From positions 1-38,522 of the forward strand of contig JANTHB010000030.1 of NCBI GenBank assembly GCA_024762655.1: DNA of 38,522 nucleotides, given 5' to 3'. The notes below the pieces were generated by a model, which saw nothing but the letters and a program-made list of their open reading frames with translations, ran no database searches and was not told where the DNA came from. Both the position numbers and the translations under genes were made by a program. Positions 13,151 through 30,835 of the stretch are shown piece after piece; the stretch's first letter is position 1; each line of letters opens with the position of its first letter. Origin of the DNA: Bacteroidales bacterium (lineage in GTDB: Bacteria > Bacteroidota > Bacteroidia > Bacteroidales > VadinHA17).

Positions 13151-14650
13151 TTAAAACGGACCCGGCCGGGTGATGGTATCCGCTCCTCCGGATCTGCCGG
13201 GCATCTCGCCCCAATGGAAACCTTTCAGTATTCTCTTACCTGTTTTGCGGTCAAAATGATCGGGTGTGATATGTTCCGGGCAGGTCTCCCCTGTTTCCTG
13301 CATCCATCGTTCCAGTACTTTTTTCATATCTTCCTTTTGTTTTTCAAAACGCGGGTCATCGGCCAGATCGTAAAACTGAAAGGGATCATTGACACAATCA
13401 TACAGTTCTTCTGCCGGCCTGGGTTTTTTGAACACATCTTCCTGCAGTTTATCGGTATTTCCGTCTAGCCATGCCTGGTATAATTCTTTCATGGAAGGGC
13501 TGGCGACAGCATCGGCAGGTCCCCAGGCATCGAATTGCGGTCTTTTATTGATCAGGTAAAGAAAATCCTTGGTACGCACCTGGCGTTCACAGGCCTCGTA
13601 GTCATGCCAGTTGTGTTCCGAGAAAGTATATTGCCGGAATTCTTTATCCGGATGGGTAAAGAGAGAGGCGAAACTGTGTCCCTGAAAAGTGGGGCCGGGT
13701 TGTATCCCTGCCACCTCGAGCAGGGTGGGTGCCAGGTCGATGATGCTCACCATCGCGTCTATCGTGCTTCCGGCAGCGATATGACCGGGCCACCGGATGA
13801 GCAACGGCGTTTTTATTCCGCTGTCGTACATCCGCGTTTTGCAGCGGGGGAAAGGACGGCCGTTGTCGGAGGTGAAGATCAGGATGGTGTTCTTAGCGAT
13901 CCCTTGTTTTTTCAGCTCCTCCATCACCCGGCCCACATAATAATCAAGGCGGGTGATCTCATTGTAATAAGATGCAAGGTCCCTGCGTGTCCTTTTACCG
14001 TCATACAGGAAAGCCGGCACCCACACTTTTCCGGGGGTATTTGTTATTTTAAAGGTATCGGCGCCCCAGGGACGGTGGGAGTCGTAGGAAGCGAACCACA
14101 TAAAGAAAGGTTTGTCTTCGGGACGTTCGCGCAGGAACTGCAACCACCTGTTCTCTCCGCCGTCACCATTATCTTTCCAGGAAACGGAGAAACGGTCAAA
14201 GGCCCTGACGGCAGGTCCCAGCCCGGTCGTATCGTTATTTCTCTTTCCGGCCGTATGTCCGAAATGCCACTTGCCGGCCTGGGCCGTATAATAGCCGTGG
14301 GCCCGGAGGATCTCCGGAAACAGGATCTGGTTGGCAGGAAGCGGCGAATGCAGTTCTGCCGCTCCCGTATTGTGCGGATAACGTCCTGTGATGATGCTGC
14401 AGCGGCTGGGACTGCATGAGCTGGTAGTCAGGTAGGCATTGCCGAAAAGCAGCCCGTCGCGGGACAGTTGGTCCAGGTTGGGTGTTTTGATCCCTTTGTT
14501 GCCATAACAACCCAGATCGTTCCAGCCCACATCATCCCCGATGATGAAAATGATGTTAGGGCGTTTGTCAACCGGGTTCTTCTCACTAGTACAGGAAGAA
14601 AATGTAATAAAAGTGAAGATTACCGCTATCAAAAAGAAAAATGTTTTCAT
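13151..14650 (-). CDS. Formylglycine-dependent sulfatase, lipoprotein (S1 family, SGSH-like)
   Basis: A 499-residue type I sulfatase that would remove sulfate from a sugar or related ester. The chosen start (14650) begins the lipoprotein signal MKTFFFLIAVIFTF ending in the lipobox FSSC; an in-frame ATG 15 codons earlier adds a non-signal extension. The modification motif is CSPSR at residues 79-83, whose Cys is converted to formylglycine by an anaerobic or aerobic maturase not seen here. Metal ligands are in FIIGDDVGWND near the start and FTSDNGRPFP further on. The DNGRPFP..KTRMYDSGIKTPLL region resembles N-sulfoglucosamine sulfohydrolase-type sulfatases (subfamily S1_8), a tentative subfamily call. 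The C-terminal ELYDCVNDPFQFYDLADDPRF is the usual sulfatase ending. A remnant of a second sulfatase lies just upstream. Confidence 0.93.
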   Translation of the reverse strand: MKTFFFLIAVIFTFITFSSCTSEKNPVDKRPNIIFIIGDDVGWNDLGCYGNKGIKTPNLDQLSRDGLLFGNAYLTTSSCSPSRCSIITGRYPHNTGAAELHSPLPANQILFPEILRAHGYYTAQAGKWHFGHTAGKRNNDTTGLGPAVRAFDRFSVSWKDNGDGGENRWLQFLRERPEDKPFFMWFASYDSHRPWGADTFKITNTPGKVWVPAFLYDGKRTRRDLASYYNEITRLDYYVGRVMEELKKQGIAKNTILIFTSDNGRPFPRCKTRMYDSGIKTPLLIRWPGHIAAGSTIDAMVSIIDLAPTLLEVAGIQPGPTFQGHSFASLFTHPDKEFRQYTFSEHNWHDYEACERQVRTKDFLYLINKRPQFDAWGPADAVASPSMKELYQAWLDGNTDKLQEDVFKKPRPAEELYDCVNDPFQFYDLADDPRFEKQKEDMKKVLERWMQETGETCPEHITPDHFDRKTGKRILKGFHWGEMPGRSGGADTITRPGPF

Positions 14651-15034: not shown

Positions 15035-17218
15035 ATGGCAAGAACAAAATTCATTTTCCACTTTTTATTGCTTGTATCGTTCTCTGTTGTGTCCGTTTTT
15101 GCCCAGAAGGGAACGGTCAGCCATTCTCCTAAAATCGGGCTTGTGCTTAGCGGTGGCGGCGCCAAGGGATTTGCGCATCTTGGAGTGATGAAAGTGTTAC
15201 AGGAAGAAGGTATTCCCTTTGACATCATCGGAGGCACCAGTATGGGAGCTATTGTGGGGGGGCTGGTAGCTTCGGGAATTCCGGTGGATACCCTTATATC
15301 TTTTTTAAAGGAACAGGATTGGAGTTATTTGTTATCTGATTTTATCCGAAGGGCGGATTTGTCTATTACCGAAAAAAAAGACCGGGATCGGTTTATGGTG
15401 TCCTTTCCTTTCAATAACAAGGGAATCAAACTTCCTGCCGGTTTAATACGTGGGCAGCATATAGAAAATTTGCTCCACGCTTTGGCAGCACCTGTGTATC
15501 GAATCCGTGATTTCAACAAACTTCCCATACCGTATTTGTGTGTAGCGTTGGATCTGGATAATAACAAAGAGATCGTTTTTCGGCAGGGCGATCTTGCCGA
15601 TGCTATGCGTGCCAGTATGTCCATACCTTCGATTTTTGAGCCGGTTGTGGTCGATGGCAGCAGAATGGTAGACGGAGGTGTGGTAGATAATTTTCCCGTC
15701 AGACATGTATTGGATGCAGGTGCTGACATTATCATAGGGGTAGATGTAGGGCATCAGAAAAAAAATCCGGATGTACCGCCCAATTTGCTGTCGGTGATGG
15801 AAGATGCTGTATTTTACTATTCCAATATTGTCCGGCAGGAAAATCTCAAGAAAGTAAATATTTATATACATCCGGATTTGAAAGGGCTGGGGGTTTCAAG
15901 TTTTACCGATTACGATTCTTTGATTGCCTACGGTAAAGAGGCGGCTCTGGCAAAGTTACCGGAAATACGTCATTTGGCAGACTCTATACACCGTCTGGGG
16001 AGAACAGTTCCGGAACCGGGAAAAACCCTATACAGACAAGATTCCATATACGTAAGGTCCATAAAAATGGTCGGTTTAAAGCAGCTCTCCAGGCGTCTCA
16101 TTAATTCTTCCCTGAATTTTCATGTCATGGAATGGGTGAAACCTTCGACATTACAGCAGGCTGCCGAAGATTTTTATGCTTCCGACTATTTTGATAAAGT
16201 AACTTTCGCCCTGATGCCTGAAGGAGACGGTGCGCAGGTTGTTTTCAACTTCAAAGAAAAAGATGGGAACCGGTTCAATGTAGGTTTTTATTATGATTCT
16301 GACTACAAAACCGTTTTTTCGCTCAACACAACATTTTTGAATGTGCCTTTTAAAGGATCGAAGTTATCCATGACGGGAAAGCTTGGAAAAAATCCCGGAA
16401 TTGACATAAATTATTTTCTGGATAAGGGGGCCGTGCTGGCACCGGGGTTTGAGATCTCGGGAAATTTTCTTGAAGCGTATAATTATGATGAGTCCAGAAA
16501 TCGCGAAGCCAGCTATACCTATTTTATATCTTATCTTCGGGTCTTTCTTCAGTCTAAATTCAACAATGCGGTTTTATTCAGGCTCGGCGGTGAAATGAAT
16601 CATACTGCGATCCAGCCAAAGATATCGGAGATAGATTTCGGCAGAGTCAAAGATAATTTCTGGGGTATATTTACCGACATCCATATGGACACACGCAATC
16701 GGTCTGTTTTTCCCACCTCCGGGATCAGGTTGAGAGGCAATGGGAAGTTTTCCGGTAATCGTTTCTTTCATCCGGTGACGCATGTTAATCTGGATATTCA
16801 GAAACCTATGTCTTTTTCCGATCGTTTTTCGATGATCCATGAGTTGTTCGGAGGTATAAATTCCGGAGACTCCCTGCCTTTTCAGTGTAATTACTGGATA
16901 GGTGGTCAGACGGACTTCACCAGTTACGGAAATGTCCCTTTTCCCGGCTATAAATTTCTTGAGGCCGGAAGCAGGACGCTGTTTTATTACAGGATGGATC
17001 TGCAATATAACCTGAATAACTTATTCATTGTTGTAAACGGGAACCTGGGAACGATGAATCCTATTACTCCGGAAATATGGGAGAATTCTTCCATGATATC
17101 GGGTTTCGGCATTTCAATTGGATATATAACTCCTATCGGTCCTGTAAAAGTATCTTTAACAAAATCCGGAGAACTAAGGGGAACGATGGGGTATCTTCAA
17201 ATCGGCTTTGCGTTCTGA
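15035..17218 (+). CDS. Patatin-like phospholipase fused to POTRA and outer-membrane barrel (PlpD/type Vd-like)
   Basis: A 727-residue exported protein. The frame is open from 14918, but the start at 15035 gives a proper signal peptide (FHFLLLVSFSVVSVFAQ, cleaved near residue 24) and follows a promoter box. The patatin domain covers about 33-240: glycine-rich oxyanion loop GGGAKG at 40-45, nucleophile Ser69 in GGTSMGA, and the second dyad residue Asp213 in VDGGVVDNFP, so it should be an active lipid acyl hydrolase. A single POTRA-like segment follows (SIKMVGLKQLSRRLINSSL, about 345-425), then a Bac_surface_Ag/BamA-type 16-strand barrel ending in MGYLQIGFAF with terminal Phe. This matches type Vd patatin autotransporter-like proteins. 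There is no operon partner. The substrate lipid and whether the domain faces the periplasm or the surface are unknown. Confidence 0.93.
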   Translation: MARTKFIFHFLLLVSFSVVSVFAQKGTVSHSPKIGLVLSGGGAKGFAHLGVMKVLQEEGIPFDIIGGTSMGAIVGGLVASGIPVDTLISFLKEQDWSYLLSDFIRRADLSITEKKDRDRFMVSFPFNNKGIKLPAGLIRGQHIENLLHALAAPVYRIRDFNKLPIPYLCVALDLDNNKEIVFRQGDLADAMRASMSIPSIFEPVVVDGSRMVDGGVVDNFPVRHVLDAGADIIIGVDVGHQKKNPDVPPNLLSVMEDAVFYYSNIVRQENLKKVNIYIHPDLKGLGVSSFTDYDSLIAYGKEAALAKLPEIRHLADSIHRLGRTVPEPGKTLYRQDSIYVRSIKMVGLKQLSRRLINSSLNFHVMEWVKPSTLQQAAEDFYASDYFDKVTFALMPEGDGAQVVFNFKEKDGNRFNVGFYYDSDYKTVFSLNTTFLNVPFKGSKLSMTGKLGKNPGIDINYFLDKGAVLAPGFEISGNFLEAYNYDESRNREASYTYFISYLRVFLQSKFNNAVLFRLGGEMNHTAIQPKISEIDFGRVKDNFWGIFTDIHMDTRNRSVFPTSGIRLRGNGKFSGNRFFHPVTHVNLDIQKPMSFSDRFSMIHELFGGINSGDSLPFQCNYWIGGQTDFTSYGNVPFPGYKFLEAGSRTLFYYRMDLQYNLNNLFIVVNGNLGTMNPITPEIWENSSMISGFGISIGYITPIGPVKVSLTKSGELRGTMGYLQIGFAF

Positions 17219-24722: not shown

Positions 24723-25835
24723 TCAGGATCCGGCAGGGTTATATTCCTGTAATTCTATTTCTCCTTTTAGGTATAAGTAGGCATAATAAGCCAAACCTTC
24801 CAGTTCATCATCTCCGGGGTACACATGAACCTCCGACACTTTCGGCAGTCTTTCCATCAGGTAACGCATGAGTGTACGACTGTTGGCCATAGGGCCGGTA
24901 ACCAGGATCGAGTCGATGGGATCGGTAACGGTCATACACATGGCGCCCACTTCTTTGGCAACCTGATAGGCCATTGCTTCAAAGATAAACCGGGCTTTTT
25001 CATTTCCTTCTTCCACCATTTTTTCCGCATTGTAACCGCTGCTGGTATTCAGGTAAGCCACCATGCCACCCCGGCCACGTACCATTTCCAGCATTTCTTC
25101 CAGGGTGTATTTTCCGCTGAAGCATGCTCTGATAACATCCCCGGCAGGTAAAGAGCCGCTTCCGATGACCGAAAAAGGGCCGTCTCCGTCATAACCATAT
25201 GTAGCGTCGATAACTTTTCCGTGATTATGCATACCCACCGTGATGCCTCCTCCCAGATTTACCACAATCAGATTCAGGTCTTCATATTTCTTTCCTATGG
25301 ATTTGGCATACATCCTGGCTACATATTTTTGGTTCAGAGCATGAAAGATCGACTTTCTCTCAAACAGAGGATGACCGGAGACACGGGCCAGCTCGTCAAA
25401 TTCATCGACAACTACGGGATCTGCAATATAGGCTTTGGCATGGGGAAAGTGCATCGCCAGGTTATCCGCAATAAGACCTCCCAGGTTCACGACATCCTGC
25501 ACCTGTTCATTGAATGTTTTCAGGTCTCTCTTCATCTTGTCATTTACCTCATAAATCCCCGACTTAACAGGATGTATAAGGCCTCCCCTGCCCATTACCA
25601 TCATAATATCGTTGAAGTCAATTTCGTTTTCCTTCAACGCTTGCAAAACCGTATCAGCCCTAAACTGTTCCTGTTCTATAATGCTGCCGAAGCGGTTCAG
25701 TTCTTCTTCCGTATGGCGGATCATTTTAAGAAAGATCGTTTTCTCCAGCCTGTAAACGGCAATCTTGGTATAGTCCACCCTGGGATTTACCGTTAACACC
25801 AATATTCTGGAAAGATCAATACCTTTTTTGTTCAT
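24723..25835 (-). CDS. buk: Butyrate kinase-like ASKHA-family acyl kinase (diverged)
   Basis: A 370-residue homologue of butyrate kinase, the enzyme that makes ATP and butyrate from butyryl phosphate. Family landmarks include KIAVYRLEKTIFLKMIRHTEEEL, DPVVVDEFDELARVSGHP, NLGGGITVGMHNHGKVID, CFSGKYTLEEML and YPGDDELEGLAYYAY. Two normally invariant places differ: the first phosphate loop, usually NPGSTSTK, reads NPRVDYTK at 17-24, and the GPFSPERAG-type motif reads GPFSVIGSG near 220-228. No phosphate butyryltransferase gene is beside it. It may be a paralogue with altered acyl substrate or lost activity. It has its own short upstream gap after the trpB terminator, with a near-consensus TAACTTTA box. 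Family membership is certain; butyrate as substrate is not. Confidence 0.78.
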   Translation of the reverse strand: MNKKGIDLSRILVLTVNPRVDYTKIAVYRLEKTIFLKMIRHTEEELNRFGSIIEQEQFRADTVLQALKENEIDFNDIMMVMGRGGLIHPVKSGIYEVNDKMKRDLKTFNEQVQDVVNLGGLIADNLAMHFPHAKAYIADPVVVDEFDELARVSGHPLFERKSIFHALNQKYVARMYAKSIGKKYEDLNLIVVNLGGGITVGMHNHGKVIDATYGYDGDGPFSVIGSGSLPAGDVIRACFSGKYTLEEMLEMVRGRGGMVAYLNTSSGYNAEKMVEEGNEKARFIFEAMAYQVAKEVGAMCMTVTDPIDSILVTGPMANSRTLMRYLMERLPKVSEVHVYPGDDELEGLAYYAYLYLKGEIELQEYNPAGS

Positions 25836-27304: not shown

Positions 27305-27341
27305 CATTTTAGTTTTTAGAAGTTGAAATTTTAAAAAAAGA

Positions 27342-27363
27342 GGCATGCTGTAACCAACATGCC
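27342..27363 (-). terminator. Attenuator terminator hairpin of the trp leader
   Basis: A 9-bp stem (one G-U pair) with a 4-nt loop, followed on the minus strand by TC and seven T. It lies between the leader peptide and the trpB2 start, 35 bp upstream of the ATG. Confidence 0.87.
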
Positions 27364-27392
27364 CCGGAATATTTTCATTTTATCCTTCCTGT

Positions 27393-27470
27393 TTACCTGA
27401 CATACGGGTTACAGCAACTGTGTTTCAGTTGCCAGCACCACCAATATGTCCGGTTCATTGTTTTCATCAT
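27393..27470 (-). CDS. trpB2 leader peptide (Trp-rich, 25 residues)
   Basis: A short open frame with start complementary to 27468-27470 (alternatives at 27467 and 27458) and stop TAA at 27393-27395. It begins MMKTMNRTYWWCWQLKH and ends NPYVR. Three of its 25 residues are tryptophan, as WWCW, coded at 27432-27443; random occurrence of such a cluster in so short a frame placed exactly ahead of a trp gene is unlikely. It is a sensing device and not expected to act as a protein. An in-frame stop precedes the first ATG. The promoter is uncertain: a TATATTTT box at 27481-27488 would leave almost no untranslated leader. Confidence 0.82.
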   Translation of the reverse strand: MMKTMNRTYWWCWQLKHSCCNPYVR

Positions 27471-27528
27471 TCAGGTTGCTAAAATATAAAATTTCTTAAT
27501 TACAAAAAATTTATACGAAAAAAAAGAA

Positions 27529-27550: not shown

Positions 27551-27612
27551 CAAATGGACGCTCAATCTTGTTTGGGAGAAAGTACCAAAAGTACCATGAG
27601 CTGTTTTTTTCT

Positions 27613-27620
27613 TATCTTTG
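27613..27620 (+). promoter_or_regulatory. -7 promoter box for the hybrid sensor kinase
   Basis: TATCTTTG matches TAnnTTTG exactly. Transcription would begin near 27626, about 50 nt before the ATG at 27677 and after the longer frame's start at 27554, supporting the shorter protein. Confidence 0.5.
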
Positions 27621-27676
27621 CTTATCCATTAAAAGTTTTAGTGGACTTTTTTCACACAGAATCCATACCCCGCCCC

Positions 27677-30600
27677 ATGCATACAAAAGTCATTAAGGTG
27701 CTATTTCTGGAAAACCGTGTTCCCGATGTGCAACGGATAATATCGGAGCTGGAAAAAGAAAATTATGCGGTTGAGGAAAAGATTGTGAAAACCGAACAGG
27801 ATTTTATCCGGGCGCTGGAAAGCTTTCATCCGGACCTTGTTATCTGTAGCAATGATCTGCCCGGGTATGACGGGATCTCGGCTATCAAGTATGTTGTAAA
27901 AAAATATGATAATTTACCGGTTATCATGGTAACGGGATACATGGAGGAAGAGCGGGCTGTTGAGGCAATGAAAAACGGTGCCTGGGACTATGTTTTGGAG
28001 AAACACCTCTCCCGTCTTGGTCCTTCCGTCAACAGAGCACTTCAGACCAGGGATGAGAGGAAGCTAAAGGCTCGTGCACTAAAACAACTGAAAGAAAGTG
28101 AGATGCAGTACCGGTCCCTGTATGAACATGCAGGTACCGGTTTGTTTCAGTCCACCCTTGACGGAACCCGTTTCACGGCCTTCAATCAGACTTTTGCGAG
28201 AATACTGGGATACCCCAAAGAGCAGTTGCTCAACATGCGGCCGGCCGATATGTGGTATAGACCGGAAGAAAGGGAGTTTTTCACCCAGAAGATCCGGGAA
28301 AGCAATGAAGTTTCGGGGTATAAAGCTCGTCTGAAACATGCCTCCGGCCAGAATATTTACGTGCTTATTTCGGCTCGGTATTTTTCGCAGGACGGATGGA
28401 TCGAAGGTTCGATCATAGACATTACACAAGCACAGCGTGACGAGCTATTGCGAGATATCATTTACAGTATATCGGAAGCTGCTACCACCAAAGGCTCTCT
28501 GAATGAATTGTTGGTTACCATCAATTTCGAACTGAATCGTCTGATAAAAAGTAAAAACCTGCTGATAGGCATAGTAAATAATGTAACCGGAATACTGGAA
28601 TTACCATACATGCGTGATACGCAAAAGACCGTACGAAAATTTCCTCTGGAACTTTCCATCTCCAGGCTAGTCATAGACTCCGGTCAGGCCATGTTTCTGA
28701 AAAAAGACCAATTGAACCGTTTAAAAAATGAAGGAACAATAAAACCAATACGGAAACTCCCTGAAGTATGGCTTGGAGCTCCGCTTACCGTAGGAAGGAA
28801 TGTTTTCGGGATACTGGCACTTCAGGATTATGAAAATCCGGATGCTTTTTCCGAAGAAGATCTGCGGCTGTTGAATTATGTAGCCAGGCAAGCGTCCATG
28901 GCTATACACAAGAAAAAATATGAAGAAGATAACCGCCGGCTGAGAATGGGTGTGGAACAAAGCCCCATTTCTATTGTTTTTACCGATCCGGAGGCAAATA
29001 TTGTGTATGTCAATCCTTTTTTTGAAAAACTTACCGGATATTCCCTGCATGAGGTGAGAGGGAAAAATCCCCGGGTACTCAAGTCTGGGCAAACGCCCGG
29101 AAGCACATACAAGGAACTCTGGGATAAGGTAACACAGGGAGAAGTTTGGAAGGGAGAATTTCTGAACCGTAAAAAAAACGGAGAATTGTACTGGGAATCT
29201 GCCGTAATCAGTCCGGTATATGATGAACACGGCACATTGATAAACTATATTGGCCTGAAGGAAGACATTACCCAGAAGAAGCAGGTTGAAGAAGCGTTAC
29301 AGGAAAGCGAAGAGCGGTTTAAGACCTTGACAGAACAGGCCAATGACGGCATTATTATGCTGGATCCGGAACTGCGCATTGTTTTCTGGAACAAGGCTTT
29401 TGAGAAACTGGTCGGTTATTCAGGAGAAGAACTGGAAAACAAACCGTTACCGGACATTGCCCGGTATGAAGACCATAGTGCTATCACAATGTCTGCAGAA
29501 AAGAAAAAAAGATTCAAAGAATCCGGGCAGGCCAACTCGATAGGAAAAACCTTGCAGTTACAACTCAGAACCAGGGATGGAATATGGATTGATACGGAAA
29601 CCTCTCTGGCATCCCTGAAACTGCATAATCGATGGTATGCCGTTTCCATCATCCGGGACATTACCCTGCGCAAGAAGTATGAAAATGAGCTTGAGGAAGC
29701 GCGGAGAAAAGCGGAAGAATCCGACCGGCTTAAAAACACTTTCCTGACCAATATTTCCCATGAGTTGAGAACGCCTCTCAATGCCATCATCGGGTTTTCA
29801 GAGATTATTGAACATTCTTTCATGAACCCTGAAGTGTATGAGCATGCCAATAACATTCATCATAGCGGTATTCAGCTTTTGCGCATTATTGAAGATATTC
29901 TGAACCTTTCCCTGATCGAAAGCGGCAGCCTGAGTCTTGTCAACAAAGAGTTTCCGGTGAGTGAGCTGGAAAAGGATATCATGGATCATTTCGACATGAG
30001 CAATAAAAAGTATAAGAAGGAAGATGTTGAGTTTGTTCTGCATTTTCAGGAAGAGCTCAAACAAAAAAAAATGATATCCGACCGGCATTATCTTAATTAT
30101 CTTACCAATATATTAATAGACAATGCCGTGAAATTTACCCAGAAAGGCAGCATAAAGGTATCCCTTGAGATGGAAGATGAGAACCTGGTTATTAAAGTAA
30201 AGGACACGGGCATTGGCATTGCCCGGGAGAAAAAAGATGTTATCTTTGACAAATTCAGACAGATAGAGGAAACACTGACCCGCAGATACGGAGGTACCGG
30301 TGTCGGGCTGACCATTGTAAAGAATTTTGTTGACCTTATGGGGGGTAAGATTTCTGTAAATTCAAAGAAGGGAAAAGGTTCTGAATTTATTATGAAGATT
30401 CCCGGTTTACTAAAAGAAAAAGCCATTTTGACCCAAAAGAAAAAAAGTCAATTTCAGCCAGAACTTCTTAACGGAGTGAAGATTCTTGTTGCCGAAGATG
30501 AGGAGCTGAACTATTTGTTGTTAAAGGGTTTATTATCCAGGTATGGAGCCCAACTGATTCGTGCCGGAAATGGCCAGGAAGCCATAGATCTGTACCAACA

Positions 30601-30835
30601 ACACAGAGATACCCGGCTGATTCTTATGGATATCCGTATGCCAGTCATGAACGGGCTTGAAGCCACGGAGAAATTAAAGCAAATTCGTTCTGATCTACCG
30701 GTGATTGCCATAACTGCCTACAGCATGCAGGAAGATAAAACGAGAGCTCTGCAAGCTGGTTGTGACGAATTTCTTACCAAGCCTGTTGACAAGGACAAAC
30801 TAAATGAAGCTATCGGGAAGTTTTTGTCCGACTGA
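27677..30835 (+). CDS. Hybrid sensor histidine kinase (REC-PAS-GAF-PAS-PAS-HisKA-HATPase-REC)
   Basis: A 1052-residue cytoplasmic signalling kinase without membrane segments. Order: N-terminal receiver-like domain (about 4-125); PAS (about 148-260, YRSLYEHAGTGLFQSTLDG); GAF (about 280-420); PAS (about 430-545, NPFFEKLTGYSLHEVRGKNP); PAS (about 555-670, WNKAFEKLVGYSGEEL); coiled linker; HisKA with His695 in NISHELRTPLNAIIG; ATP-binding motifs DNAVKFT, DTGIGI and GGTGVGL; C-terminal receiver with Asp985 in LILMDIRMPVMNG and the conserved Lys in LTKPVD. In the first receiver the acceptor position is Ser58 (VICSNDLPGYDG), so that domain probably cannot be phosphorylated. The start at 27677 is chosen over 27554 because the added 41 residues lack domain content and the promoter box lies between. 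The input signal is unknown. Confidence 0.93.
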   Translation: MHTKVIKVLFLENRVPDVQRIISELEKENYAVEEKIVKTEQDFIRALESFHPDLVICSNDLPGYDGISAIKYVVKKYDNLPVIMVTGYMEEERAVEAMKNGAWDYVLEKHLSRLGPSVNRALQTRDERKLKARALKQLKESEMQYRSLYEHAGTGLFQSTLDGTRFTAFNQTFARILGYPKEQLLNMRPADMWYRPEEREFFTQKIRESNEVSGYKARLKHASGQNIYVLISARYFSQDGWIEGSIIDITQAQRDELLRDIIYSISEAATTKGSLNELLVTINFELNRLIKSKNLLIGIVNNVTGILELPYMRDTQKTVRKFPLELSISRLVIDSGQAMFLKKDQLNRLKNEGTIKPIRKLPEVWLGAPLTVGRNVFGILALQDYENPDAFSEEDLRLLNYVARQASMAIHKKKYEEDNRRLRMGVEQSPISIVFTDPEANIVYVNPFFEKLTGYSLHEVRGKNPRVLKSGQTPGSTYKELWDKVTQGEVWKGEFLNRKKNGELYWESAVISPVYDEHGTLINYIGLKEDITQKKQVEEALQESEERFKTLTEQANDGIIMLDPELRIVFWNKAFEKLVGYSGEELENKPLPDIARYEDHSAITMSAEKKKRFKESGQANSIGKTLQLQLRTRDGIWIDTETSLASLKLHNRWYAVSIIRDITLRKKYENELEEARRKAEESDRLKNTFLTNISHELRTPLNAIIGFSEIIEHSFMNPEVYEHANNIHHSGIQLLRIIEDILNLSLIESGSLSLVNKEFPVSELEKDIMDHFDMSNKKYKKEDVEFVLHFQEELKQKKMISDRHYLNYLTNILIDNAVKFTQKGSIKVSLEMEDENLVIKVKDTGIGIAREKKDVIFDKFRQIEETLTRRYGGTGVGLTIVKNFVDLMGGKISVNSKKGKGSEFIMKIPGLLKEKAILTQKKKSQFQPELLNGVKILVAEDEELNYLLLKGLLSRYGAQLIRAGNGQEAIDLYQQHRDTRLILMDIRMPVMNGLEATEKLKQIRSDLPVIAITAYSMQEDKTRALQAGCDEFLTKPVDKDKLNEAIGKFLSD

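Follow-up and report, generated by a model that had tools for sequence, protein, structure and literature searches.

The attenuator that precedes the trp operon in enterobacteria contains a leader peptide with adjacent tryptophan codons, three alternative helices (1:2, 2:3, and 3:4), and an intrinsic terminator. In the classical trp leader, arm 2 pairs with either arm 1 or arm 3. Tryptophan peptide leaders have also been described in the Bacteroidota, where Rfam family RF01692, Bacteroid-trp, is listed as the Bacteroidete tryptophan peptide leader RNA (Weinberg et al. 2010, Table 1, PMC2864571). Candidate attenuators whose leader peptides carry doubled or tripled UGG codons have been presented for actinobacterial trp operons, including that with trpB2A of Corynebacterium diphtheriae (Seliverstov 2005, PMC1262725).

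Described here is a leader located in front of a trpB2 gene on a contig of a Bacteroidales bacterium. The entire stretch of 38,522 nucleotides analyzed is referred to as the window. We consider it highly likely that this leader is a classical ribosome-mediated transcription attenuator, which senses charged tRNA-Trp and controls trpB2. As in the enterobacterial trp attenuator, there are adjacent tryptophan codons, a 1:2/2:3/3:4 logic, and an intrinsic terminator. It differs in that the target is trpB2, the antiterminator traverses the terminator loop and enters the 3' arm, and there is no Rfam match at the gathering score. The actinobacterial attenuators likewise have leader peptides with tryptophan codons, but they belong to another phylum and, in the cited portions of that report, their "trpB2" is the copy before trpA, which may not be a TrpB2 of the TIGR01415 type. 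The type of switch is thus classical, and the open-access literature (most subscription journals lie outside of it) yielded no report of a trpB2 attenuator in the Bacteroidota. The first-pass annotation had regarded attenuation in this phylum as noteworthy; this stands for trpB2 as the target in the literature searched, but not for tryptophan peptide leaders as such, given RF01692.

Bacteroid-trp is the closest of the described systems. Its Trp-rich frame similarly lies inside the 1:2 hairpin, and positions 27368-27490 of the window align to model positions 1-131. The window scores only 24.2 bits (E 1.5 in a search with the Rfam library), however, against a cut-off of 49, and the Rfam consensus ends within what is here the 5' arm of the terminator (GGCUUGUC). 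At the gathering score there were no Rfam matches, to RF01692 or otherwise, in the window or in 19 trpB2 relatives, and a search of the window's own genome with RF01692, in which 150 of 278 first-look candidates were scored, gave nothing at E<=1. On the basis of the 24.2-bit score and this last search, the leader is a look-alike rather than a member of the family, and it is probably a relative of it. Among 149 genomes of the class, six contain RF01692 matches (five above the cut-off), three before trpE and three before trpB1, with none before trpB2. Conversely, R1, a covariance model built from an alignment of trpB2 leaders (A2, below), recovers all six of these loci with 23.0-43.6 bits. Given that leaderless matches to R1 in the window's own genome reach 29.0 bits, four of the six exceed background. 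The RF01692 cut-off is reached by two of 20 R1-derived loci.

Provided in Table 1 are the features of the trpB2 leader and of the related loci.

Table 1. Features of the trpB2 leader in the window, its target gene, and leaders found elsewhere.
Feature	Position	Strand	Remarks
Leader peptide frame	27393..27470	-	MMKTMNRTYWWCWQLKHSCCNPYVR*, 25 residues; ATG 27470, stop TAA 27395-27393; second ATG at 27467
Regulatory Trp-Trp-Cys-Trp codons	27432..27443	-	read from the sequence; present in alignment A2
Arm 1	27441..27451	-	GGACATATTGG; pairs with arm 2, resembles arm 3 GGGCATGTTGG
Arm 2, antiterminator core	27407..27415	-	GCTGTAACC; 9 perfect pairs with 27355-27347
Arm 2, antiterminator extension	27399..27404	-	TATGTC; pairs with 27363-27358, also with arm 1
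Arm 3, partner of arm 2 extension	27358..27363	-	GGCATG; within terminator 5' arm
Arm 3, partner of arm 2 core	27347..27355	-	GGTTACAGC; covers the whole terminator loop, the final base of the 5' arm, and the four initial bases of the 3' arm
Intrinsic terminator	27340..27365	-	11-bp stem including two G-U pairs; loop GTTA 27351-27354
U7 tract of terminator	27333..27339	-	read from the sequence
Promoter-like -7 element (putative)	27481..27488	-	TATATTTT; TTG upstream
trpB2, TrpB-like PLP enzyme, 460 aa	25925..27307	-	TIGR01415 / PRK12391: 642.2 and 713.7 bits, curated cut-offs 518.85 and 366
trpE-operon Trp leader, same genome	G000:C5:51415-51533 (L083 about 16416-16534)	-	MNRTHTCWWWLNENRMLS; R1 match E 3.1e-8
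Cys and Trp leaders of L179 (G418:C131:10500-18500)	record 15465-15600 and 13494-13633	-	CCWCC leader before cysK; Trp leader before trpB2

The 25-codon frame with three tryptophan codons in the order Trp-Trp-Cys-Trp is present as the first-pass annotation had read it, and the arm at 27347-27355 indeed overlaps the terminator loop and both arms of the stem, such that the two folds are mutually exclusive. Two elements proved larger than had been described. The 9-bp perfect antiterminator is exact, but after a short internal loop it continues for six more pairs (27404-27399 with 27363-27358), and the terminator, with its U tract, has a stem of 11 rather than 9 bp. Because arm 1 resembles arm 3, arm 2 can choose between them. 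The terminator hairpin, which the U7 tract follows, ends 32 nt before the trpB2 ATG at 27307. The calculated fold energy of the 138 nt from 27333 to 27470 is -49.2 kcal/mol (z -5.5 versus dinucleotide shuffles, with 0/200 equally low). The putative promoter element upstream of the frame is presumably a -7 element of the Bacteroidota TAnnTTTG type; the combination of TTG and TAnnTT[TC] occurs in 21 of 39 leaders versus 96 of 780 shuffles. A scan of the genome for the pattern TGGTGGTGBTGG returned 14 sites versus eight for the reversed control, and the pattern was therefore dropped as evidence.

The proposed mechanism is as follows. When tryptophan is ample, a ribosome would read the WWCW codons through to the stop at 27395 and thereby cover arm 2; alternatively, it would be released at the stop, and the 1:2 hairpin would form. 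With arm 2 masked or held in 1:2, arm 3 would pair with arm 4, and transcription would stop at the U tract. When tryptophan is scarce, the ribosome would stall on the tryptophan codons, covering arm 1 and leaving arm 2 free to pair with arm 3. Such pairing would start in the 5' arm and the loop of the terminator and extend into the 3' arm while the latter is being synthesized. With 2:3 formed, RNA polymerase would proceed into trpB2, a gene that very probably is transcribed only under a shortage of tryptophan.

Blocked-arm folding of the full-length transcript, as suggested in the first-pass annotation, gave no antitermination in any of five ribosome states, with P(3:4) at 0.99-1.00 throughout. 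Folding of the growing transcript, on the other hand, produced a ribosome-dependent antiterminator. In these simulations the ribosome footprints were assumed: for the tryptophan-codon states, the RNA was kept unpaired from its 5' end to a point 13 nt beyond the first base of the A-site codon, and for the stop-codon state over a stretch running from 17 nt behind through 13 nt in front. When the ribosome occupies either the first or the third tryptophan codon, the probability of the 2:3 core is 0.88 at an exposed end of 27348, 1.00 at both 27346 and 27344, and 0.89 at 27342. In the absence of a ribosome, or when it sits at the stop codon, the value exceeds 0.01 at none of the ends tried, with the terminator forming instead (0.81 at 27342). 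When the RNA end reaches 27340, the terminator prevails in all ribosome states (0.98-0.99). A ribosome on the tryptophan codons thus frees arm 2 and one at the stop masks it in the growing-transcript simulation only, the effect being absent from the full-length equilibrium. Since the terminator wins once transcription is complete, the switch has to be kinetic, with the antiterminator acting before the 3' arm is complete. The model would require the 15-bp antiterminator to persist while the polymerase crosses the U tract.

Conservation was assessed with a detector that calls a frame of 7-45 residues having at least two tryptophans within six, followed by a hairpin of <= -11 kcal/mol before a T-rich stretch. 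One scan of genome contigs supplied 80 trpB2 loci, the best 80 of 394, of which 23 are titled Bacteroidota and 57 otherwise. Another 45 loci came from genomes of the same class or order (two more matches without a locus were left out, and L117 apparently repeats L015). The leaders of these relatives bear out the expectation of a Trp-rich frame and a terminator: among the best 80 of 394, the pair is found in 20 of the 23 Bacteroidota-titled loci, as compared with 0/230 shuffles and 0/23 opposite strands. It is missing from L045, L046, and L070 of that set; L046 has a terminator and no Trp cluster. For the other-titled loci among the best 80, the count is two of 57 (L007 and L028) versus 1/570 shuffles, and for the same-class loci it is 16 of 45 versus 1/450, with the pair lacking in the remaining 29. 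Locus L115 is called by the detector, yet its pairing is worse than that of shuffles (p 0.865); it was retained in the counts. The peptides themselves diverge widely (YWWCW, WRWRWW, WRWWW, KWCW, and NWWW, for example), and the in-frame tryptophan codons are kept.

The TrpB2 relatives with 86-95% identity (L003-L007) are titled Bacteroidales or Bacteroidetes, with the exception of L007, titled Chlorobiota, whose TrpB2 groups with that of the window. In a TrpB2 tree of 126 rows, built by a quick method with SH-aLRT support only, all 20 rows of the window's clade, the window included, carry the attenuator. The attenuator label requires six changes on this tree versus a shuffled mean of 9.3 (3/500 shuffles equally low, with 78 leaderless rows left out). 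Outside of the Bacteroidota, a leader with WQAWGW and a terminator lies upstream of trpB2 in a member of the Spirochaetota (L028, 2830-2971). In addition, an Aminicenantes trpB2 (L018) is preceded by a Trp-rich frame, LWRW, with no terminator called by the detector, and could work on translation.

A Trp-cluster frame is present in 48 of the 125 loci, and in 10 of these, L018 among them, no terminator was detected. Such loci would be expected if the leader controlled translation of trpB2, through ribosome access or coupling, rather than its transcription. For the window we regard this as very improbable, in that its hairpin is followed by U7 and ends 32 nt ahead of the trpB2 ATG, and the terminator stem is the best conserved of all the helices.

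Compensatory changes were counted on two alignments, namely A2, which contains 15 sequences aligned without structure, and A3, which contains all 27 rows first aligned. The A2 rows were picked after the arm 2 pairings were known, with the helix structures taken from the window row, and for this reason all 27 A3 rows were counted too. A2 omits 12 of the 27, including most of the WRWRWW/WRWWW group, and of the 39 loci that have both a leader and a terminator, 12 are in neither alignment. In A2, 95.1% of the cells of the 3:4 helix are paired and seven of its 11 pairs have changed on both sides; the corresponding values for 2:3 are 84.8% and seven of 15. For both helices, the percentage paired and the covariation score were reached by 0/500 shuffles; one of the controls (control a) is inflated by related sequences. 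The number of 2:3 pair types was not above shuffles in A2 (79/500) or in A3 (277/500). Slid controls on A2 reached at most 57.4% (3:4) and 48.1% (2:3) paired. In A3, the 3:4 helix is 85.9% paired with eight of 11 pairs changed on both sides (0/500 shuffles), and the 2:3 helix is 70.2% paired with nine of 15 changed (37/500), its covariation score and percentage paired again at 0/500. The 2:3 values are thus lower in A3, but still well above the slid controls, which reach at most 51.6% (3:4) and 43.6% (2:3). Weak spots in 2:3 are A2 columns 65/136 and 66/135, which are unpaired in six and seven of the 15 sequences, respectively. Conservation is poorer for the 1:2 helix (67.8% paired in the 15 sequences of A2), and its pairs changed on both sides are not above shuffles (127/500).

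The clearest column is A2 128, a terminator-loop base that is unpaired in 3:4 and covaries with its arm 2 partner (CG 6, AU 4, GU 3, other 2; in A3, CG 8, GU 6, AU 4, other 9). Locus by locus, the duplex between arm 2 and the terminator has p <=0.05 in 23 of 39 cases and is no better than shuffles at that level in 16, the shuffles behind these values being lightly mixed. In the WRWRWW/WRWWW group, arm 2 pairs mainly with the 5' arm of the terminator, and the duplexes often fail to surpass shuffles (L008, L011, L012, L019, and L022).

These data also bear on whether a frame and hairpins might have come to surround an ordinary terminator by chance. Trp-cluster frames alone are not rare, arising in 29 of 230 shuffled leaders, and four weaker R1 matches elsewhere in the genome of the window (L146-L149, 17.7-29 bits) lack a Trp leader, with a terminator-like hairpin in three of them. 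Against this stand the far rarer joint occurrence of leader and terminator in shuffles given above and the compensatory changes in both of two mutually exclusive helices. Moreover, the neighboring gene on the 5' side, which encodes a hybrid histidine kinase (27554-30835, + strand), is transcribed away from the terminator, so that the terminator does not end that gene. The conservation across loci in practice refutes a chance arrangement, to which we give very little credence. Equally hard to credit is a terminator worked by a trans-acting factor or another class of riboswitch (T-box, TRAP) with an incidental peptide, for nothing positive supports it, no T-box or other described riboswitch appears at the gathering score or in the E<=10 list for the window, the sole bacterial amino-acid leader in that list is Bacteroid-trp, itself a peptide leader, and the in-frame tryptophan codons persist while the surrounding peptide changes. 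Ribosome-mediated attenuation of trpB2, as proposed from the first reading of the sequence, is supported by the kept tryptophan codons, the compensatory changes in 2:3 and 3:4, and the ribosome-dependent simulation.

The TrpB2 of the window, which lies far below the TrpB1 cut-off, had been termed "lone". This holds for its position, but the genome also encodes a complete trpEGDCFBA operon, including TrpB1, with its own Trp leader and terminator. When R1 was run on this genome, it matched the trpE-operon leader with E 3.1e-8 in addition to the window itself, whose match (E 8.9e-28) follows by construction. Across the order, R1 matches at 0.01 occur in 83 of 198 genomes. Of 35 loci sorted, 15 precede trpB2, five trpE, six trpB1-led operons, one trpG, one a broken-looking trpB2, and one cysK, with no trp gene at six; at L166 another frame intervenes between the leader and the trpB1-led operon. 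At least five of the 15 trpB2 loci (L144, L150, L152, L153, and L155) are in the model alignment and hence do not constitute independent support, nor does L151, whose peptide is identical to that of the aligned L077. Independent support is provided by the trpE, trpB1, and trpG loci. Weak R1 matches outside the 35 sorted loci are likely terminators. At L171, trpB2 is apparently broken early, and an attenuator-like terminator lies in front of it.

One R1 match (E 1.6e-11) is a cysteine leader, MKISAYISINCCWCCENTSKCKQFVNM, with the codon order CCWCC. In this genome (G418), the Cys leader and cysK are succeeded by a gene for serine O-acetyltransferase (scoring above the cut-off of NF041874 and below that of TIGR01172), the Trp leader, and trpB2. 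The two leaders align with a score of 134 versus 48 +/- 9 for shuffles and, with the terminator part removed, 73 versus 41 +/- 7 (0/200 shuffles equally high). With a homologous CCWCC leader so near to a Trp leader, it seems that the amino acid read by the scaffold can change, and the Cys leader would apparently be an attenuator re-aimed from one amino acid to another. Five other genomes of the family gave no such match at E<=1e-4, and the case therefore rests on one genome. A Cys-rich leader with a terminator precedes cysK in four of 30 loci, that of G418 included, versus 0/300 shuffles; Trp leaders precede none of the 30. Upstream of cysK in L194, L204, and L212 of the same order, Cys-rich frames (CCC, CCCC, and CCC) are followed by terminators and are candidate Cys attenuators. 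A Cys leader before cysS has been described in Rhodobacterales (PMC8632094, in the portion cited), and the open-access literature searched yielded nothing on cysK leaders for the Bacteroidota.

A gene for butyrate kinase (24723-25835, - strand) lies 89 nt downstream of trpB2. The same order is seen in four (L003-L006) of 18 relatives examined, which include L019, whose sequence stops at trpB2, and L010, whose sequence stops shortly beyond it, and thus the neighborhood looks local to the close clade.

The "extra" trpB2 genes, whose carriers include Bacteroides, are usually located away from trpA, and what they do is a matter of discussion in the cited parts of these reports (PMC2395257, PMC1854888); for Thermoplasma, an additional function was inferred from the separation of trpB2 from other trp genes (PMC1854888). 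Use of O-phosphoserine and a high affinity for indole have been noted for TrpB2 proteins (Busch 2014; Hettwer and Sterner 2002, both as cited in PMC11917138). A tryptophan-sensing switch fits on-demand synthesis of tryptophan from indole, although another product under the same control would also be compatible. Here TrpB2 would convert indole to tryptophan, acting as a second synthase in addition to TrpB1, and there are good grounds to infer that it serves tryptophan supply, as had been argued from the leader at the outset.

We lean slightly toward a broader reading, in which one modular Bacteroidota scaffold has been copied between genes and re-aimed by rewriting of the leader codons, for tryptophan before trpB2 and the trp operon and for cysteine before cysK in one genome; trpB2 would then encode a second synthase induced by tryptophan starvation across much of the phylum. 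RF01692 at its cut-off misses a set of similar Bacteroidota Trp leaders. The G418 pair offers a natural case of an attenuator apparently switched between tryptophan and cysteine. The retention of the switch before trpB2 in many members of the phylum provides regulatory evidence that the enzyme is called on when tryptophan is scarce, even in the presence of a complete trp operon with TrpB1. If the scaffold is indeed modular in this way, the old puzzle of trpB2 function would narrow to tryptophan supply.
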